DNA from: Flavobacteriaceae bacterium YJPT1-3
GTDB lineage: Bacteria > Bacteroidota > Bacteroidia > Flavobacteriales > Flavobacteriaceae
Length of the DNA: 64,000 nucleotides
Direction of reading: 5' to 3'
NCBI GenBank assembly: GCA_029866965.1
Contig: CP123444.1
Span: 971,501-1,035,500, forward strand
Numbering within the stretch: the stretch's first letter is position 1; each line of letters starts with the position of its first letter. The position numbers were made by a program, and so were the translations under genes. The notes beneath the pieces are model-generated. The model worked only from the letters and a program-made list of their open reading frames with translations. It was not told the DNA's origin and did not search any database. Shown here piece after piece: positions 35,001-43,001 of the stretch.

Positions 35001-35990
35001 TTAATCAGATTCGTGGGCGTATCCCTCTACGATTTTATAACACCAGATAAGAAAATTGAAAAGTAGAAAGAGCAGCACCAGGACAACAGGGGTAAATAAG
35101 AATTTATTACGAACAACGACCTGATTCTTGATCACTTCAGGATCATTAATCACGTAGAGCAAACGGTCTAATTGGATCAGCTCCGAGCGCAACTTCGTAT
35201 TCTCCTCAAGCAGCCGTTCTTTTTGCTCTAAGATGCCTTCCATGCCTGCAGCATCACTCCCAAAAGCGATTAATTGTTGTCCCTTAAAATCATTTTTATC
35301 CGCCAATGTAGCATTGACATTGACCAGCAAGCTGTCAACTTGAGCTAAGGTGAATGCATTACTTTTCAATCGCTCTCGATAGGAACTTACCAATTGACCC
35401 CGCTCTTTTTGAAGCGCATCGTTTTTTTCTACAAAGTCCAGCAACGGCTGTAGGCTTTCCTCGGTTCCTTTTGGACCCAGGGTGAGTGTGACCGTGTGGT
35501 ATTTATAATCGTAATGAAAAGTTTCATTTTGAGAGAAGTCCTCTTCATCATTCAGATTTTTCAAGAGCTGTATGGTCTGACCCTCGCTATAGCCTTGGTA
35601 TTTATCCAGAATATCCCGCACATTAATTACAGGATCTATGGATATCTCTTTCAAGCTTTTCAAGGCCTTGGAAGAAACTCCCGTCTGTAAAAGAAACACC
35701 GTATCCTTCTGCTTGATCTTGGAGTTGAGTAATGAGATCGCATCATAAACGTAAGGCGTGCTATTGACATTGGGTTGTACCAGCAGATTGATCGATCGTT
35801 TAGGGTTTTCGAAGCTGTCCCAGACCAAACCAATTCCTAAGCCGACCAAAAAAAGGACCATAAGAATTACGGCCTTGCGAACAATAAAACTGACCCCGTG
35901 GTAGATGGCTACAAGAATGCCTTTAAAGAATTTTTTGATCCCATTCAGCACATGGGTGAGATCGAGATCGTGCACTTCATTTTCTTTCAT
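35001..35990 (-). CDS. Wzz-like chain-length/export protein
   Basis: 329 residues. A membrane helix near residues 41-57 and another near 297-317 flank a large periplasmic domain with coiled coil (MEGILEQKERLLEENTKLRS). This is the layout of polysaccharide co-polymerases, though the usual Pro-Gly-rich motif before the second helix is not obvious. It should set polymer length together with the Wzy-type protein. The start overlaps the end of the upstream gene by 4 bp (ATGA). Confidence 0.7.
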   Translation of the reverse strand: MKENEVHDLDLTHVLNGIKKFFKGILVAIYHGVSFIVRKAVILMVLFLVGLGIGLVWDSFENPKRSINLLVQPNVNSTPYVYDAISLLNSKIKQKDTVFLLQTGVSSKALKSLKEISIDPVINVRDILDKYQGYSEGQTIQLLKNLNDEEDFSQNETFHYDYKYHTVTLTLGPKGTEESLQPLLDFVEKNDALQKERGQLVSSYRERLKSNAFTLAQVDSLLVNVNATLADKNDFKGQQLIAFGSDAAGMEGILEQKERLLEENTKLRSELIQLDRLLYVINDPEVIKNQVVVRNKFLFTPVVLVLLFLLFNFLIWCYKIVEGYAHESD

Positions 35991-37672
35991 GTGGCGTTGA
36001 ATATTTGTTCCAGAATCTTTTCAGTGATCAAATAGGTAGGCTTAACACCGGTAGTTCCCAGGCCTCCTGATGCTAAGGTGCTTCCTGTCTCCAGGGGGTT
36101 GTCAGAAGCGTAATAGGCATAACGCACTTTTACGTCCTCTCGTATATTTCCGCGTAAGCGAGCTGCCGCCTGAATGGCTTTTTGATAATGGGCTCCCTCC
36201 ATCTCTAGTCCAATGACATTCCAACTGCTCTCGTAAAAGAATTTTAAAATATCCTTGTTCTGCAAGGAGGTCCCGAGTACGGTGATCATCGCGCCTTCAT
36301 AGACTCCAATGTCATGTCCCAGAAGGTCTTCTTTTTGTAATTCGTTTTGGAAGGGATAGTTATCAGCAGTGCCTTCAAACAAATGGGCCGAGGGGATCAT
36401 GATGTCTCCTTTTCCACCTTCCAGAATGCCCGCTTTTCCCATGATGGACACGGAACACACATTTAGGAACAAGTCTTTTTGACCGGTATCATAAGGTTTA
36501 AGCAACTCCTCCATGGTCTCATAGGCCTGCTCACCAAACGCATAATCCATGACTATGATCACGGGCTGATCTTCTTCCGATTGCTTTACCCCGCAAAAAT
36601 GATTGTCTTCAAAGGGCAGCTTGGTGGTGTCGAATATCTGCACATCAATGTTGGTCCCACTACGGTCTTTAATGAAGGTCATGCCGTGTTTTAGCGCAAT
36701 TTTCTCCACCTTTGCCCGCAGTTTTCCATTGGCAGGATTGCTCAAAGCCTCATAGATGGCCAGATTCTTTTTGCCCTTCATTTCCGTTTTAAGAGCCAGA
36801 GGTGCGAACAGCGTGTTCATTACGCTGTGCATATTGGCGCTGATGATGTGTAAGGGTCTGTCTAAAAGCTGCTGTTCCAGAAGGACTGATTTGATATCGT
36901 TGGCCCAAACTTCCCCGTGAATGTGGTGTCCCAGACGTTCTCGAAGCACTGGAGTGAAGGTGACTATTCTTTTTTTATTGTCGATGGCTTCTGCTATGGC
37001 CAGTTTGCCAAGCCAATAAATGATATGTAAAAAGCGCTTGTTGTTAGAAGAGGTGGAGAATTTTGAATAAATAGCACTGACCTCTTTGAAGGTCCGGCCT
37101 AGTATGTTGGCACAGTGCGACAGGGCAATCTCTCGCTGCGTGTCTGAGAGTTCGTCTTCAGACAGCACGGCCATCTCGAGCTTCTTCCAGTCGCGGGTGA
37201 CGTCGCCTCCTTCGTCAATCACGATACGTCGCATGATCTTGTGTGATTCGATAAAGAGAAAGGTCAAGTGGGTGAGTATGTCGTAGATCTCTGAACGACC
37301 TCGGGTTATCTCAATATTCATCTGCTCCTCATCGATACGATAGCAGTTTCGACGTCTTTTCGGGGGTATGATCGGGCGGAAATGAGAATCCTGATAGCCT
37401 TCGTCACTGGTCAGGTTGATGAATCGGCATTCCTCAATGCCTTCCGGCAGTCGGTCCATCACGTAGAGCAGTCCGTTGAGTTCCACTTTTTCCTCGGCAA
37501 TGGCGCCGTAGATCTCCGGGCGCAATATCAACAGGGCTTCCCGCAAGGTTTCTCCAGAAACGCCCATGGGCTTGTAAAAGCCACGATTGAAGAGATGTCT
37601 CATGGTGATGTACATCCGCTCAATGGCTCCAGAGCTCTCTTGCGCACGCGTTCGTCCTGAACCTGTATCCAT
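35987..37672 (-). CDS. DUF6909-like protein with nucleoside-phosphorylase-like C-terminus
   Basis: 561 residues, soluble, no signal peptide. I recognise it as a conserved Bacteroidota protein of unknown function. The C-terminal ~230 residues carry features of the purine nucleoside phosphorylase/MTA nucleosidase superfamily: glycine-rich KAGILEGGKGDIMIPSAHLF, GAMITVLGTS, the substrate-binding VIGLEMEGAHYQKA (EME at ~490-492) and an SD dipeptide in YYASDNPLETG (~523-524). The N-terminal 320 residues match nothing I know. It overlaps the Wzz-like gene by 4 bp and has its own TATCTTTG promoter box 16 bp upstream. Confidence 0.7.
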   Translation of the reverse strand: MDTGSGRTRAQESSGAIERMYITMRHLFNRGFYKPMGVSGETLREALLILRPEIYGAIAEEKVELNGLLYVMDRLPEGIEECRFINLTSDEGYQDSHFRPIIPPKRRRNCYRIDEEQMNIEITRGRSEIYDILTHLTFLFIESHKIMRRIVIDEGGDVTRDWKKLEMAVLSEDELSDTQREIALSHCANILGRTFKEVSAIYSKFSTSSNNKRFLHIIYWLGKLAIAEAIDNKKRIVTFTPVLRERLGHHIHGEVWANDIKSVLLEQQLLDRPLHIISANMHSVMNTLFAPLALKTEMKGKKNLAIYEALSNPANGKLRAKVEKIALKHGMTFIKDRSGTNIDVQIFDTTKLPFEDNHFCGVKQSEEDQPVIIVMDYAFGEQAYETMEELLKPYDTGQKDLFLNVCSVSIMGKAGILEGGKGDIMIPSAHLFEGTADNYPFQNELQKEDLLGHDIGVYEGAMITVLGTSLQNKDILKFFYESSWNVIGLEMEGAHYQKAIQAAARLRGNIREDVKVRYAYYASDNPLETGSTLASGGLGTTGVKPTYLITEKILEQIFNAT

Positions 37673-37700: not shown

Positions 37701-39194
37701 TTACCCCTCTACCTCGAGAAGTTGATCGGCGATTTTCCGGTCATTGGTCAATCGGGGAATCTTATTTTGACCCCCTAATTTGCCCTGTGTTTTCATATAC
37801 TGTTGAAAGCCTCCGCGGGAAATGGGAGTGATCACCAAAGGGCGAAGCACTTTCCCGTTGATCAGATCAAAATAATAACTGTTTTGGTCTTGTAGCGACT
37901 GGTCGAGCGCTTTCGCGAAAGCCTCCTCATCCTTCGGTCGCTGCTCAAATTCGATCAGCCATTCGTGATAGGGTAGGCCCTGCTGCGGATTGATCTGCGG
38001 CGCCACTGTAAACTCGGTCACCACGCCTCCATGGGCGTCTACTGCTGCTTTCAGCGCATGTTCCACCTCTTTGCCGATCACGTGCTCACCAAAGGCAGAG
38101 ATGTAATGTTTGATTCGGCCGGAAACGATCACGCGATAGGGATGCAGACTGGTGAATTGAACCGTATCTCCCAGATTGTAGGCCCAGAGTCCGGCATTGG
38201 AGCTGATCAGCATGACGTAATTGACCCCCAATTCGACCTCCCCGATGGTCATCCGCTGTGGATGTTCTTCAAAAAACGAATCTGCTCTTACAAATTCATA
38301 GAAGATCCCGGCGTCCAGGCGCAAGAGCATACCCGGATCCCCTTGCTGATCCTGATAGGCAAAAAAACCTTCACTGGCCGGGAACAATTCAATGCTGTCC
38401 ACTTTTCGACCAATGAGCTTATCGAACTTGGCCCGATAGGGTTCAAAATTGACACCCCCATAAATGAACAAACGGAAATTCGGGAAAAGTTCACCCACCG
38501 GTTTACCGGTTTTCGCGATCAAGCGTTCGAAGTACATTTGCACCCAGGATGGAATTCCGCTGATGACGGTCATATCCAATTGATGGGTTTCTTCTACGAT
38601 GGCGTCTACCTTGGTCTCCCAGTCTTCGATGCAATTCGTTTCCCAGCTGGGCACGCGATTGCGCTGCAGATAAGCGGGCACATAATGGGCCACAATACCG
38701 GAAAGTCGACCCAATTTGATCCCGTTCTTTTCCTCCAACTCCGGACTCCCTTGCAAAAAGATCATCTTGCCGTCCACAAAGTCGGTATGTCCGGTTTGGT
38801 TAATGTACAGCAAGATCGCATTGCGCGCAGCCTCCGTATGCGAAGGCATAGACACTTTAGTGATAGGGATGTATTTGGCTCCGGAGGTGGTGCCGGAAGT
38901 CTTGGCAAAATAGAGGGGTTTTCCGGGCCAAAGAATGTCTTTTTCGCTCGCCACCACGCGATCCACATAAGGGCGCAGCGCTTCATAATCGCGGATAGGC
39001 ACCTGCTGAATAAAGTCGGTGTGGGAATGGATCTGATCGAAGTGATGGTCCTGACCAAAGACCGTGGTACGCGCTGTCTTAATCAGTTCTTTAAATACCT
39101 TTCGCTGTGCACTCACAGGATTGTTGGCCCATTGATCTACCTTGTATTTCACATACTTCGCAAACAGTCGGGCTCCCCATCGCTTGATCTTCAT
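37701..39194 (-). CDS. GH3-family acyl-adenylating protein
   Basis: 497 residues from the ATG at 39194 (MKIKRWGARLFAKYVKYKVD), directly after the M23 peptidase stop; a longer reading from 39248 would overlap that gene by 52 bp. The adenylation motifs are FAKTSGTTSGAKYIPI, FPASEGFFAYQD and YNLGDTVQF. The family is named for plant GH3 enzymes that join amino acids to acyl groups; bacterial members are uncharacterised and common in Bacteroidota. The recurrent palindrome (37909-37922) encodes AFAKA. Confidence 0.88.
   Translation of the reverse strand: MKIKRWGARLFAKYVKYKVDQWANNPVSAQRKVFKELIKTARTTVFGQDHHFDQIHSHTDFIQQVPIRDYEALRPYVDRVVASEKDILWPGKPLYFAKTSGTTSGAKYIPITKVSMPSHTEAARNAILLYINQTGHTDFVDGKMIFLQGSPELEEKNGIKLGRLSGIVAHYVPAYLQRNRVPSWETNCIEDWETKVDAIVEETHQLDMTVISGIPSWVQMYFERLIAKTGKPVGELFPNFRLFIYGGVNFEPYRAKFDKLIGRKVDSIELFPASEGFFAYQDQQGDPGMLLRLDAGIFYEFVRADSFFEEHPQRMTIGEVELGVNYVMLISSNAGLWAYNLGDTVQFTSLHPYRVIVSGRIKHYISAFGEHVIGKEVEHALKAAVDAHGGVVTEFTVAPQINPQQGLPYHEWLIEFEQRPKDEEAFAKALDQSLQDQNSYYFDLINGKVLRPLVITPISRGGFQQYMKTQGKLGGQNKIPRLTNDRKIADQLLEVEG
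37909..37922. repeat. GCTTTCGCGAAAGC palindrome, copy 8
   Basis: Exact copy inside the GH3 gene; encodes AFAKA. Confidence 0.95.
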
Positions 39195-39196
39195 GC

Positions 39197-40063
39197 TTAG
39201 TCGAAATCTATAAAGTTGGTGGGATTCAGGGGAAATCCATTGCTCCACAATTCAAAATGCAAATGGGGCCCTGTACTTAATTCTCCGGTAGAACCAACGG
39301 TGGCGATCACCTCACCCGCCGCAACGAGTTCCCCTTGTTGTTTGGACAAGGATTTATTGTGCTTATAGGCGGAGATCAGGTTATTCCCGTGTTCAATGAT
39401 GATTACGTGACCGGTGGCTGCGGTCCATTCTGCGAAAATGACCGTACCGTCAGTCACCGCCTTGACCGGAGCATCTTTCACGGTGACGATATCTACGGCA
39501 TAATGTTTTTTAGAGGCATCGTATCCATCACTGATGGTGCCACTTACGGGGGCATAGAGGGCAAAATTACCGGTCTCCACCTCACTTTCAAAAAGATTGT
39601 ATTTGTCTTCCTGTGCGACGATGGCACGCAGTAGGGAGTCTTCGGCAGAAGGGGCCAGATCAACCAGATCAGGATCCATACGTGCGGCCTCCATGATGCT
39701 GTCACGATTAAACTCGACGGTCTGAACGTCTCCGGTCAACACTTTTTTGATCGATTCATAATACTGCTCATTGATGCGCATGGCACGTTGCAGCGAATCG
39801 GTTTTAAAAGCAAGTATGGTGGCTCTTTTTTTCAAAGCTGTCGAGGAATATCCGGGAATGTATTCCCGTAGTGGCGTATAGGCTATAAGTACCGTAGTAA
39901 GCGTAATCAGGGTAATGATGCTTATTCCTGAAATAATGAAAACATTAAGTCGGGTCAACTTGAAGGATAGCCGCTCTTCAAAGGTGTCTTCGTTCAAGAT
40001 CACCAGCCGATACTTATGAAGCAGCTTTTTCTTTATTTCTTTTGTTTTCTTCCTTTTTGCCAT
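39197..40063 (-). CDS. M23-family peptidoglycan endopeptidase
   Basis: 288 residues from the ATG at 40063 (MAKRKKTKEIKKKLLHKYRL). A basic cytoplasmic head is followed by one membrane helix (VFIISGISIITLITLTTVLI), a coiled region, and a C-terminal lysostaphin-like domain with both zinc motifs (HYAVDIV and HLHFELWSNG). It should cut peptide cross-links in cell wall or act in wall remodelling. It starts 12 bp after a perfect TATCTTTG box and is followed within 2 bp by the GH3 gene. Confidence 0.93.
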   Translation of the reverse strand: MAKRKKTKEIKKKLLHKYRLVILNEDTFEERLSFKLTRLNVFIISGISIITLITLTTVLIAYTPLREYIPGYSSTALKKRATILAFKTDSLQRAMRINEQYYESIKKVLTGDVQTVEFNRDSIMEAARMDPDLVDLAPSAEDSLLRAIVAQEDKYNLFESEVETGNFALYAPVSGTISDGYDASKKHYAVDIVTVKDAPVKAVTDGTVIFAEWTAATGHVIIIEHGNNLISAYKHNKSLSKQQGELVAAGEVIATVGSTGELSTGPHLHFELWSNGFPLNPTNFIDFD

Positions 40064-40075
40064 GGCGCCTGGACA

Positions 40076-40083
40076 CAAAGATA
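40076..40083 (-). promoter_or_regulatory. -7 promoter element for the M23 peptidase gene
   Basis: TATCTTTG on the minus strand, 12 bp before the ATG at 40063. It is divergent from the tatA promoter. Confidence 0.6.
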
Positions 40084-40433: not shown

Positions 40434-41399
40434 TCAATTGATCTTGGCCGATCGTAAGATGGATTCCAATTCAAACATATTGTCTCGCTTTTCCACATTA
40501 GGGGCAAAAACAAAGCCTTCTAAAATTACGTAGCGATTATTTTCTTCGTCGCGAATGGCATAGTTTACAAACGGACCGGCCATGTATTTGTTCAACACTT
40601 CCCAGGTGCCTTTGGTCTCATACGCGAATTTACCGTCAATGTTGGTCTCAAAAATGTAGGGAAAATAGGCCGCCTCTGTAATAAATCGGCCGCCTTCATC
40701 AACGGTCACGTTACGGCCGCCAATGGAGTCACGCATCCGTACGATATTGGCAATGCGGCTGGTGTCTTTATCGATCACTGATAGGGGTACCTCGTATGCG
40801 ATGATATTCATGCCTCCGTTCTGAATATCCTTGCGGATCCAGAAAAAATCGTCCTCGGTCTTGGCATAGCGATAAGCGGTGGGAAATTTCAACGAGACCC
40901 CCAGGTTTTTCTTTAAAAGTTCGTCGTCTTTTAGCGATAAGCTGATTCGACGCTGTTTTTCCTTGATCTCCCGGTTCTTAAATTCAGCGATGATGTCATC
41001 AGCATGTTCGTCCAGTAAATTGATGATCTCTTCGTTGGTCGTGCCGGTAATAATGGCTCCGGTTTGCGGTTTAGCATACACATTTTCTACCATGCTGAAT
41101 CCTGTACTATCCGCTTGGGCCACCTTCAAATAGATGCGGTTCTTACGCATAAAATCGGTGAAGGCAGATTCAGGCATTTGATTTAAGGTGAATAACGGCT
41201 CTTCCTGAGGTAATCCGTCAACGGGAGCGGCAAATAGGGAGCGGATGGTGTCTCCCACGGTTCCTTTCCATAATTCATTGTCGATCACGATATGGAGGCC
41301 ATTAATGCCCCCTACGGAGTCGTCAATAATACGTTCTGAAGGTTTGTCATTGCACGCGGCCAGAAGCACCACGCTAAGGAGAAGTATTAATTTTCGCAT
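40434..41399 (-). CDS. DUF4837-family lipoprotein
   Basis: 321 residues. The lipoprotein signal ends LLAACND with Cys at about 16. The body (NDELWKGTVGDTI-like N-terminal part, then SLKFPTAYRYAKTEDDFFWI) matches the DUF4837 family of Bacteroidota as I remember it. It is an envelope protein of unknown role. It follows the lytic transglycosylase by 9 bp, suggesting a shared operon and possibly cell-wall function. Confidence 0.8.
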   Translation of the reverse strand: MRKLILLLSVVLLAACNDKPSERIIDDSVGGINGLHIVIDNELWKGTVGDTIRSLFAAPVDGLPQEEPLFTLNQMPESAFTDFMRKNRIYLKVAQADSTGFSMVENVYAKPQTGAIITGTTNEEIINLLDEHADDIIAEFKNREIKEKQRRISLSLKDDELLKKNLGVSLKFPTAYRYAKTEDDFFWIRKDIQNGGMNIIAYEVPLSVIDKDTSRIANIVRMRDSIGGRNVTVDEGGRFITEAAYFPYIFETNIDGKFAYETKGTWEVLNKYMAGPFVNYAIRDEENNRYVILEGFVFAPNVEKRDNMFELESILRSAKIN

Positions 41400-41408
41400 A
41401 GTTTTAGA

Positions 41409-43001
41409 TTATGATTTTGAAACAATTAAGGTCATTCCCGGTTTGAGATTATTACCGCGAATACCGTTCCAAGATTTTAATTTTTCCACCGTGGTCCCCG
41501 GAAATTTCTGAGAAATCTTCCACAGAGAATCCCCCGACTGCACGGTATACCGTTTGCCTGAGGCTGTATTGGTGGTCACTGTAGCGGCTTGAGTGACCGC
41601 TGGAGCAGGTTTTCTTGGATAAATGGTTAGCCGTTGTCCAATCCGCAAATTGGTGCTTCGGAGTCCATTCCAACTTTTGATCTGACTCACACTAACCCCA
41701 TAGCGCTCAGCGATTTTTCCAAGGTAATCTCCGCTGCGAACGCGGTAGCGGATGCGACTTTCGGCTTCCTGAAAAGCGGGTAAGGGTTGCTCCCGTGCTT
41801 CTAATTCTGCTTTCGCGAAAGCGTAGATCGCCGTTTCATTGTTGACGAACGGGCCTACCGCCTCTACGGGCAGCCGAAGTACATAATTCTCATCGTGCAC
41901 GAAGGGAATGATGTCCAGTTTATAGGAAGGATTTAAAAATTGCAGCTCATCCAAGGGCAGGCCGGTGATCTTAGCCACCTGAGGCAAGGTGATCATTTGC
42001 TTTACCCGAATGGTGTCTGTTTTGTAAAAGTTGATAGGCGGTGCCAGTTTTTTGTAGCCGTGTTCTTCTGCATACTCAAAAAGGTACATGGTGGCGAGGA
42101 AGGCTGGCACGTAGCCGGCAGTTTCTCGAGGCAAATTATGACGGATATTCCAGTAATTCTTTCTTCCTCCACTGCGACGAATGGCTTTGGAGACATTTCC
42201 GGGGCCGCTGTTGTAGGAGGCTAAGGCCAGGTCCCAATCATCGAACATTTCATACAGCTTAGACAGGTATTGGGAAGCGGCTTCAGTGGCCAACAACGGA
42301 TCCATGCGCTCATCAACGTAAGAGCTGACATCCAGTCCGTACATTTTTCCGGTTCCGAACATGAATTGCCACAAGCCGGTAGCACCAACCCGAGAGCGCG
42401 CTCTGGGTCTTAAGGCTGATTCTACAATGGCCAGGTACTTCATTTCTAAAGGGATGTCGTACCGGTCCAGAGTTTCCTCAAACATGGGAAAGTAAAATTC
42501 ACTGACCGCCATCAGACGCTCCATAGTCGGGCGATGCCTTTTCAAATACCGCTTGATCACGCTTTCCAGAGCCGGGTTGTATTCGACATTAAATGGGGTT
42601 CGGGCATTAATGGCTGCCAAGCGCTTTTTTAAGGTATCCGTAGGTAATTCTTCATACTCCACTGCGCTATAGTCCAGATTATGCACCATTTCAGCAATGG
42701 TATCATACAGGCTGTAGTCAACCAATTCATTGACCCAGAGCGAATCAAGGCGGTGTGCGTAGGCATTATCTTCCAATCGAAATATTACGGAATCTTTCTT
42801 ACTGGTGGCTACCGTGGTGAAGCTAAACTCTCGATCGACTATGGTGGTAGTCAGGGTGTCGATCACGGTCAGGGTGTCGCTGGCAATCTCGGCGATCTCC
42901 TCCTGAACAGGAGCCGGACTTCCTGAAATAGGCGTATCCTGGGCGGAAAGTAGACAACCGCACAGAAAAAAGGTGCACGCACACCAAAAGTGTTTATTCA
43001 T
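41409..43001 (-). CDS. MltD-like lytic transglycosylase with two LysM domains
   Basis: 530 residues with an N-terminal signal peptide. The catalytic SLT domain contains YLAIVESALRPRARSRVGAT (catalytic Glu in VES) and GLWQFMFGTGKMYGL, then the goose-lysozyme-like SYNSGPGNVSKAIRRSGG. Two C-terminal LysM domains (YRVRSGDYLGKIAERYGVSV and YTVQSGDSLWKISQKFPGTT) bind peptidoglycan. It cleaves glycan strands with 1,6-anhydro product formation. The recurrent palindrome at 41809-41822 encodes AFAKA in the linker before the first LysM. Confidence 0.94.
   Translation of the reverse strand: MNKHFWCACTFFLCGCLLSAQDTPISGSPAPVQEEIAEIASDTLTVIDTLTTTIVDREFSFTTVATSKKDSVIFRLEDNAYAHRLDSLWVNELVDYSLYDTIAEMVHNLDYSAVEYEELPTDTLKKRLAAINARTPFNVEYNPALESVIKRYLKRHRPTMERLMAVSEFYFPMFEETLDRYDIPLEMKYLAIVESALRPRARSRVGATGLWQFMFGTGKMYGLDVSSYVDERMDPLLATEAASQYLSKLYEMFDDWDLALASYNSGPGNVSKAIRRSGGRKNYWNIRHNLPRETAGYVPAFLATMYLFEYAEEHGYKKLAPPINFYKTDTIRVKQMITLPQVAKITGLPLDELQFLNPSYKLDIIPFVHDENYVLRLPVEAVGPFVNNETAIYAFAKAELEAREQPLPAFQEAESRIRYRVRSGDYLGKIAERYGVSVSQIKSWNGLRSTNLRIGQRLTIYPRKPAPAVTQAATVTTNTASGKRYTVQSGDSLWKISQKFPGTTVEKLKSWNGIRGNNLKPGMTLIVSKS
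41809..41822. repeat. GCTTTCGCGAAAGC palindrome, copy 9
   Basis: Exact copy inside the lytic transglycosylase gene; encodes AFAKA. Confidence 0.95.

Follow-up and report, generated by a model that had tools for sequence, protein, structure and literature searches.

The gene at positions 35987–37672 of the window, by which the whole stretch of 64,000 nucleotides analysed here is meant, encodes a member of the Pfam family DUF6909 (PF21850). This family is probably a soluble N-glycosidase which does the job of the AMP nucleosidase Amn in the Flavobacteriaceae and in scattered other Bacteroidota. The reading builds on family membership, on the predicted fold, on the conservation of the core residues and on mutual exclusion with Amn across genomes. 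The gene and its neighbours in the window are:

35001–35990, minus strand: gene for a chain-length-like membrane protein, the downstream neighbour, sharing a four-base overlap (ATGA) with the stop of the DUF6909 gene
35987–37672, minus strand: coding sequence of the DUF6909 protein (PF21850), 561 amino acids, an open reading frame with a Pfam match (1.3e-64, 219 bits)
37701–39248, minus strand: GH3-family gene, upstream (Pfam GH3, 3e-40), kept in 80 of 80 Flavobacteriaceae-type loci
39197–40078, minus strand: M23 gene, upstream on the same strand

The reading frame begins with ATG and ends with TGA, and its coordinates are those given in an earlier reading made from the letters alone (the sequence-only reading). 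That reading called the product uncharacterised, which is correct in that DUF6909, despite its very strong conservation, has no assigned function, but the product is no orphan: its 219 bits, in two stretches which together make up most of the 535-position profile, lie above the gathering threshold of the family (27 bits). That the reading frame is not a chance one is also shown by the 23 diverse homologues scanned, each of which matches DUF6909, and by the motif residues, none of which varies among the 127 aligned sequences. In all, 126 homologues were gathered, both from contigs of genomes and from whole genomes. Compared with the window protein, none of the members aligned falls below 54% identity, and about 130 positions are invariant in the diverse set of 23. 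In a sample of the phylum, DUF6909 is present in 44 of 297 genomes, including 31 out of 31 Flavobacteriaceae. An NCBIfam search with the window protein and the 23 members gave no match, a PDB sequence search with the protein or the alignment profile gave nothing above chance, and no relatives were found in the viral contigs searched. The only carriers retrieved by the plasmid search are two large Persicobacter replicons, and no mention of DUF6909 was found in the literature search. At the end of one contig (L071, 13275–13966, minus strand), two open reading frames resemble a second, broken copy of the gene, the intact one being also present.

The AlphaFold2 (AF2) model of the whole protein (pLDDT 80.9, pTM 0.63) matches the nucleoside phosphorylase superfamily when compared with the PDB using Foldseek. 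There are 141 matches at E ≤ 0.001, and the 50 that were listed all belong to this superfamily (PNP, UP and AMN). The top match is the Salmonella AMP nucleosidase (2guw_B, E = 2e-7), the Amn enzymes from E. coli (1t8s, 1t8w) and K. pneumoniae (7uwq) are among the first nine, and target-normalised TM-scores against the model reach 0.66 for single-domain phosphorylases. The strands of the model follow the superfamily order (274–278, 371–375, 405–416, 424–432, 457–464, 486–490 and 515–522), with a C-terminal helix (540–559) after the last one. These positions indicate that the domain starts well ahead of residue 320, so that the boundary drawn at about 320–330 in the sequence-only reading has to be moved to about 236–275, which divides the protein as follows:

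35990–36967, minus strand: predicted catalytic domain of the phosphorylase superfamily, residues ~236–561 (AF2 model and Foldseek PDB matches)
36968–37672, minus strand: N-terminal region, residues 1–235 (AF2 secondary structure and fold search)

According to the model, the N-terminal region opens with a lead segment, part of which is a short stretch of beta structure, and continues with a helical block (126–231). When residues 7–270 were modelled alone (pLDDT 75.9), the PDB fold search retrieved no relative (best E = 0.19); as this model is of moderate quality, a hidden fold relationship may remain. A collinear alignment of the region with the N-domain of Amn exists, but its score is within the decoy range. 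The description of the N-terminal 320 residues as unlike any domain is thus retained for residues ~1–235, but for a shorter region than was claimed.

At the level of sequence, weak matches to PF01048, below its cut-off, are found in 10 of the 23 DUF6909 members (best E = 0.0015), though not in the window protein. No other unrelated Pfam family turns up frequently amongst them, the runner-up being found in 3 of 23. With a superfamily HMM built for this study, DUF6909 proteins hold all of the first 50 ranks against 1133 unrelated open reading frames used as decoys. The hhalign register is as expected and pairs GKAGIL, EGTADNY, EME and SDNP of DUF6909 with GKCGGI, EGTSNDY, DME and SDQP of AMN; the score of this direct comparison is no higher than that of decoy families, both profiles being shallow. 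None of the AMN family models (TIGR01717, NF006142, TIGR01721 and NF005500) matches the 23 members at E ≤ 10, and the model for MTA/SAH nucleosidases (TIGR01704) gives no match in DUF6909 members. The earlier proposal of a phosphorylase-type fold for the C-terminal part is upheld by the model, the fold search, the weak PF01048 matches and the conserved pocket, in which the EME and SD residues are present. The likeness then seen to PNPs and MTA/SAH nucleosidases is justified at the level of the superfamily, but the closest comparison is with AMP nucleosidase.

The residues which could form the active site are located as follows:

36923–36937, minus strand: RLGHH, residues 246–250, a tentative assignment by positional comparison with E. 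coli Amn and long AMN sequences
36833–36835, minus strand: Asn280, after strand 1 (274–278), invariant in 127 of 127, putative counterpart of Amn Asn205
36422–36439, minus strand: GKAGIL, residues 412–417, aligned by hhalign and HMM to GKCGG(I/L) of the short AMP nucleosidases
36257–36271, minus strand: TSLQN, residues 468–472, placed by its spacing to the ME motif at the site of TT(D/N)R(R/N)xW in Amn
36197–36205, minus strand: EME, residues 490–492, invariant, putative ribose-binding Met-Glu by hhalign register (M404-E405 in Amn)
36095–36106, minus strand: SDNP, residues 523–526, invariant, putative purine-binding Asp by hhalign register (D428 in Amn, SD[KQ]P)

The order in which the sequence-only reading saw the motifs is as it described, with VIGLEMEGA (486–494) and then SD (523–524), both after the glycine-rich IMGKAGIL (410–417). 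All 127 aligned sequences agree at N280, H250, K413, M491, E492 and D524, and within GKAGIL the invariant residues are G412, K413 and G415. The pocket of K. pneumoniae Amn is formed by N205, W383, M404, E405, D428, R381 and K436, while H188 and Y189 from the other chain contact the 5'-phosphate (PMC9584410). The counterparts of N205, M404, E405 and D428 in DUF6909 are N280, M491, E492 and D524, the match for N280 being positional. No clear counterpart was found for R381, W383 and K436: DUF6909 carries S469 and Q471, and has no Lys in the following loop. TSLQN, which stands at the Arg381/Trp383 site, has invariant T468, S469, Q471 and N472, and where Amn has its GxGxPxNA loop, DUF6909 reads DYAFGEQA. 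Judged by eye and by spacing, RLGHH could tentatively be the counterpart of the RLRHY segment which makes the partner-chain phosphate contact in Amn (its H250 is conserved in 127 of 127); the match is tentative since DUF6909 is about 14 residues longer between RLGHH and strand 1. Taken together, the retained and the absent residues suggest that the chemistry is kept, while the substrate contacts are partly different. The lack of conservation of Arg381, Trp383 and Lys436 also makes the substrate uncertain.

A further line of evidence is the distribution of the two genes amongst genomes. None of the 297 genomes of the phylum sample has both DUF6909 and the short AMP nucleosidase, strong TIGR01721 matches being confined to genomes that lack DUF6909, and all genomes but one of the window's own class in this sample have exactly one of the two genes. 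In a class set of 295 genomes, which partly shares genomes with the phylum set, 20 have DUF6909, 199 have AMN (NF005500), none has both and 76 have neither. Within one family sampled with one genome per genus (79 genera), 40 genomes have DUF6909 only, 33 AMN only, 1 both and 5 neither (Fisher p = 8e-16, before correction for kinship). The lone genome with both is a MAG of 82% completeness and 5% contamination, and owes this to a fragment of 88 codons. In an rpoB tree built from 75 genomes of the family, parsimony requires at least 15 label changes, 9 of them forced by well-supported branches, these counts being approximate since the tree is a quick one based on one gene. Of 9 independent pairs, an average of 7.6 show AMN changing in the direction opposite to DUF6909, and none shows both changing in the same direction (sign test p ~0.008). 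The control PNP (NF006054) shows no exclusion, as it was found in 37 of 41 genomes with DUF6909 and in 27 of 34 with AMN. The exclusion also holds in families outside the Flavobacteriaceae. The exclusion, the repeated switches and the behaviour of the control point to repeated replacement by an enzyme with the same job. This job is named here by annotation, as the literature search found no biochemistry for the short AMN family (including PDB 1ybf), and it must be dispensable, given that some genomes have neither gene.

Whether the shared job is the hydrolysis of AMP has to be weighed against other activities of the same superfamily. It is unlikely, though worth keeping in mind, that DUF6909 is a nucleotide or nucleoside N-ribosylhydrolase with another physiological substrate, such as a different purine 5'-nucleotide or one that carries a modification or damage, and that it excludes Amn because of a side role in which the two overlap. 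The loss of the counterparts of Arg381, Trp383 and Lys436 could be explained in this way, as could the different and fully invariant TSLQN and DYAFGEQA segments and the very strong sequence constraint, with no aligned member under 54% identity to the window protein. This reading is however difficult to reconcile with the reciprocal switches with AMN, of which at least 9 are supported, if the two do not have their main role in common. A phosphorylase releasing base and ribose 1-phosphate, or a nucleosidase of the MTA/SAH type, is considerably less probable than that. Such an enzyme would have the same fold, many PNP and UP structures are among the PDB matches, and the window's own genome has no recognisable MTA/SAH nucleosidase above cut-off. 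Nevertheless, DUF6909 reads SANMHS after strand 1, at the position of the catalytic Glu of MTA/SAH nucleosidases, which is absent. The phosphate-binding Arg of PNPs precedes the GS of RVGSCG, and this position reads Ile or Met in DUF6909. MTA/SAH nucleosidase was also considered as the function being replaced and was rejected: it shows no exclusion pattern with DUF6909, few genomes of the sample have it, and genome G076 has both DUF6909 and a strong MTA/SAH nucleosidase.

The genes surrounding DUF6909 could suggest a different role altogether, namely that of a nucleotide sensor which has no catalytic activity and is linked to the assembly of envelope or capsule by its GH3, M23 and chain-length neighbours. 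The order M23-GH3-DUF6909 is indeed found in 80 of 80 Flavobacteriaceae-type loci, with capsule or O-antigen genes often following, and a homologue of the chain-length-like gene is directly downstream in 27 of the 80. The GH3 and M23 genes lie upstream on the same strand, as the sequence-only reading had them. Its overlap with a polysaccharide chain-length gene is real as an overlap (at 35990), but the label of that gene derives solely from its setting and from the terminal hydrophobic segments of its product, which has no significant Pfam or NCBIfam match. The invariance of the superfamily core residues speaks against a dead protein. Moreover, none of the window's neighbour genes is found beside DUF6909 in families outside the Flavobacteriaceae; there, the adjoining reading frames are, as we take them to be from reading their sequences rather than from a search, MsrA in one family (f8) and glutamine synthetase III and pantothenate kinase in another (f2). 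Since the exclusion with AMN persists with these other neighbours, the envelope setting appears to be local synteny and not the core function. A dead sensor is accordingly the least credible explanation considered, and highly improbable; an envelope role for the whole family was rejected, and the envelope-polymer role suggested earlier is unsupported as a family function.

Some features of the locus are of separate interest. The GH3-family protein (37701–39248, minus strand) has a strong, though sub-cut-off, match to the lyso-ornithine lipid synthetase OlsH (401 bits against 620) and is possibly an amino-acid lipid synthetase. A DUF4837 lipoprotein (40434–41399, minus strand) adjoins a lytic transglycosylase with LysM repeats (41409–43001), and this pair is usually upstream of M23-GH3-DUF6909 in Flavobacteriaceae-type loci.

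For the reading as a nucleosidase with the job of Amn, we infer catalysis in which AMP, or a 5'-nucleotide closely related to it, would be hydrolysed at its N-glycosidic bond, yielding ribose 5-phosphate and the free base. Protonation of the leaving base would fall to Asp524 and binding of the ribose to Met491-Glu492; Asn280 would be placed at the base and sugar, and His249/His250 from the partner chain could meet the 5'-phosphate. For the N-terminal region, a part in assembly or regulation is probable. The adenine released could be recycled by adenine phosphoribosyltransferase, whose gene (apt) is present in the window's genome, which is compatible with an AMP nucleosidase role without being diagnostic. 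The same genome has three PF01048 proteins, none of which is an AMN or an MTA/SAH nucleosidase above cut-off, so the disposal of 5'-deoxyadenosine and MTA is not accounted for. One of the three is uridine-phosphorylase-like, below the cut-off of that family. It is possible, albeit doubtful, that DUF6909 evolved separately as a nucleotide nucleosidase, with a substrate-recognition loop of its own and an undescribed N-terminal fold, and that it has displaced AMN many times in the Bacteroidota and acts on, or is regulated by, a nucleotide that may not be AMP. If DUF6909 does carry out the step of Amn, the AMP nucleosidase gap would be filled in a major bacterial group, and it would present a clear case of two unlike enzymes being repeatedly swapped for one step. 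Together, fold, pocket and replacement pattern make the proposal amenable to a concrete and cheap enzymatic test.

With regard to known systems, DUF6909 shares its fold and the Met-Glu and Asp positions with MTA/SAH nucleosidase and the purine nucleoside and uridine phosphorylases (PF01048), but it has neither the catalytic Glu after strand 1 nor the phosphate-binding Arg, and the PNP control is not exclusive with it. The E. coli-type Amn (TIGR01717/NF006142; PDB 1t8r, 2guw, 7uwq) is its best fold match, and both combine an N-terminal region with a C-terminal phosphorylase-fold domain and have an Asn after strand 1, Met-Glu, SDxP and, tentatively, RLxH(Y/H) before strand 1. DUF6909 differs from it in that Arg381, Trp383 and Lys436 are not conserved and no N-domain fold match was found, and by a helical block of about 100 residues which long AMNs seem to be without. 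The short AMP nucleosidase of Bacteroidota (TIGR01721/NF005500; PDB 1ybf) is only 258 amino acids long, against 561, has TTNRRxW in its substrate loop where DUF6909 has LGTSLQN, and gives a pairwise profile score which is not significant; it nevertheless has GK(C/A)G, an EGT(S/A)xDY-like segment, ME and SD(Q/N)P in the same order, and occupies the same phyletic slot as DUF6909.
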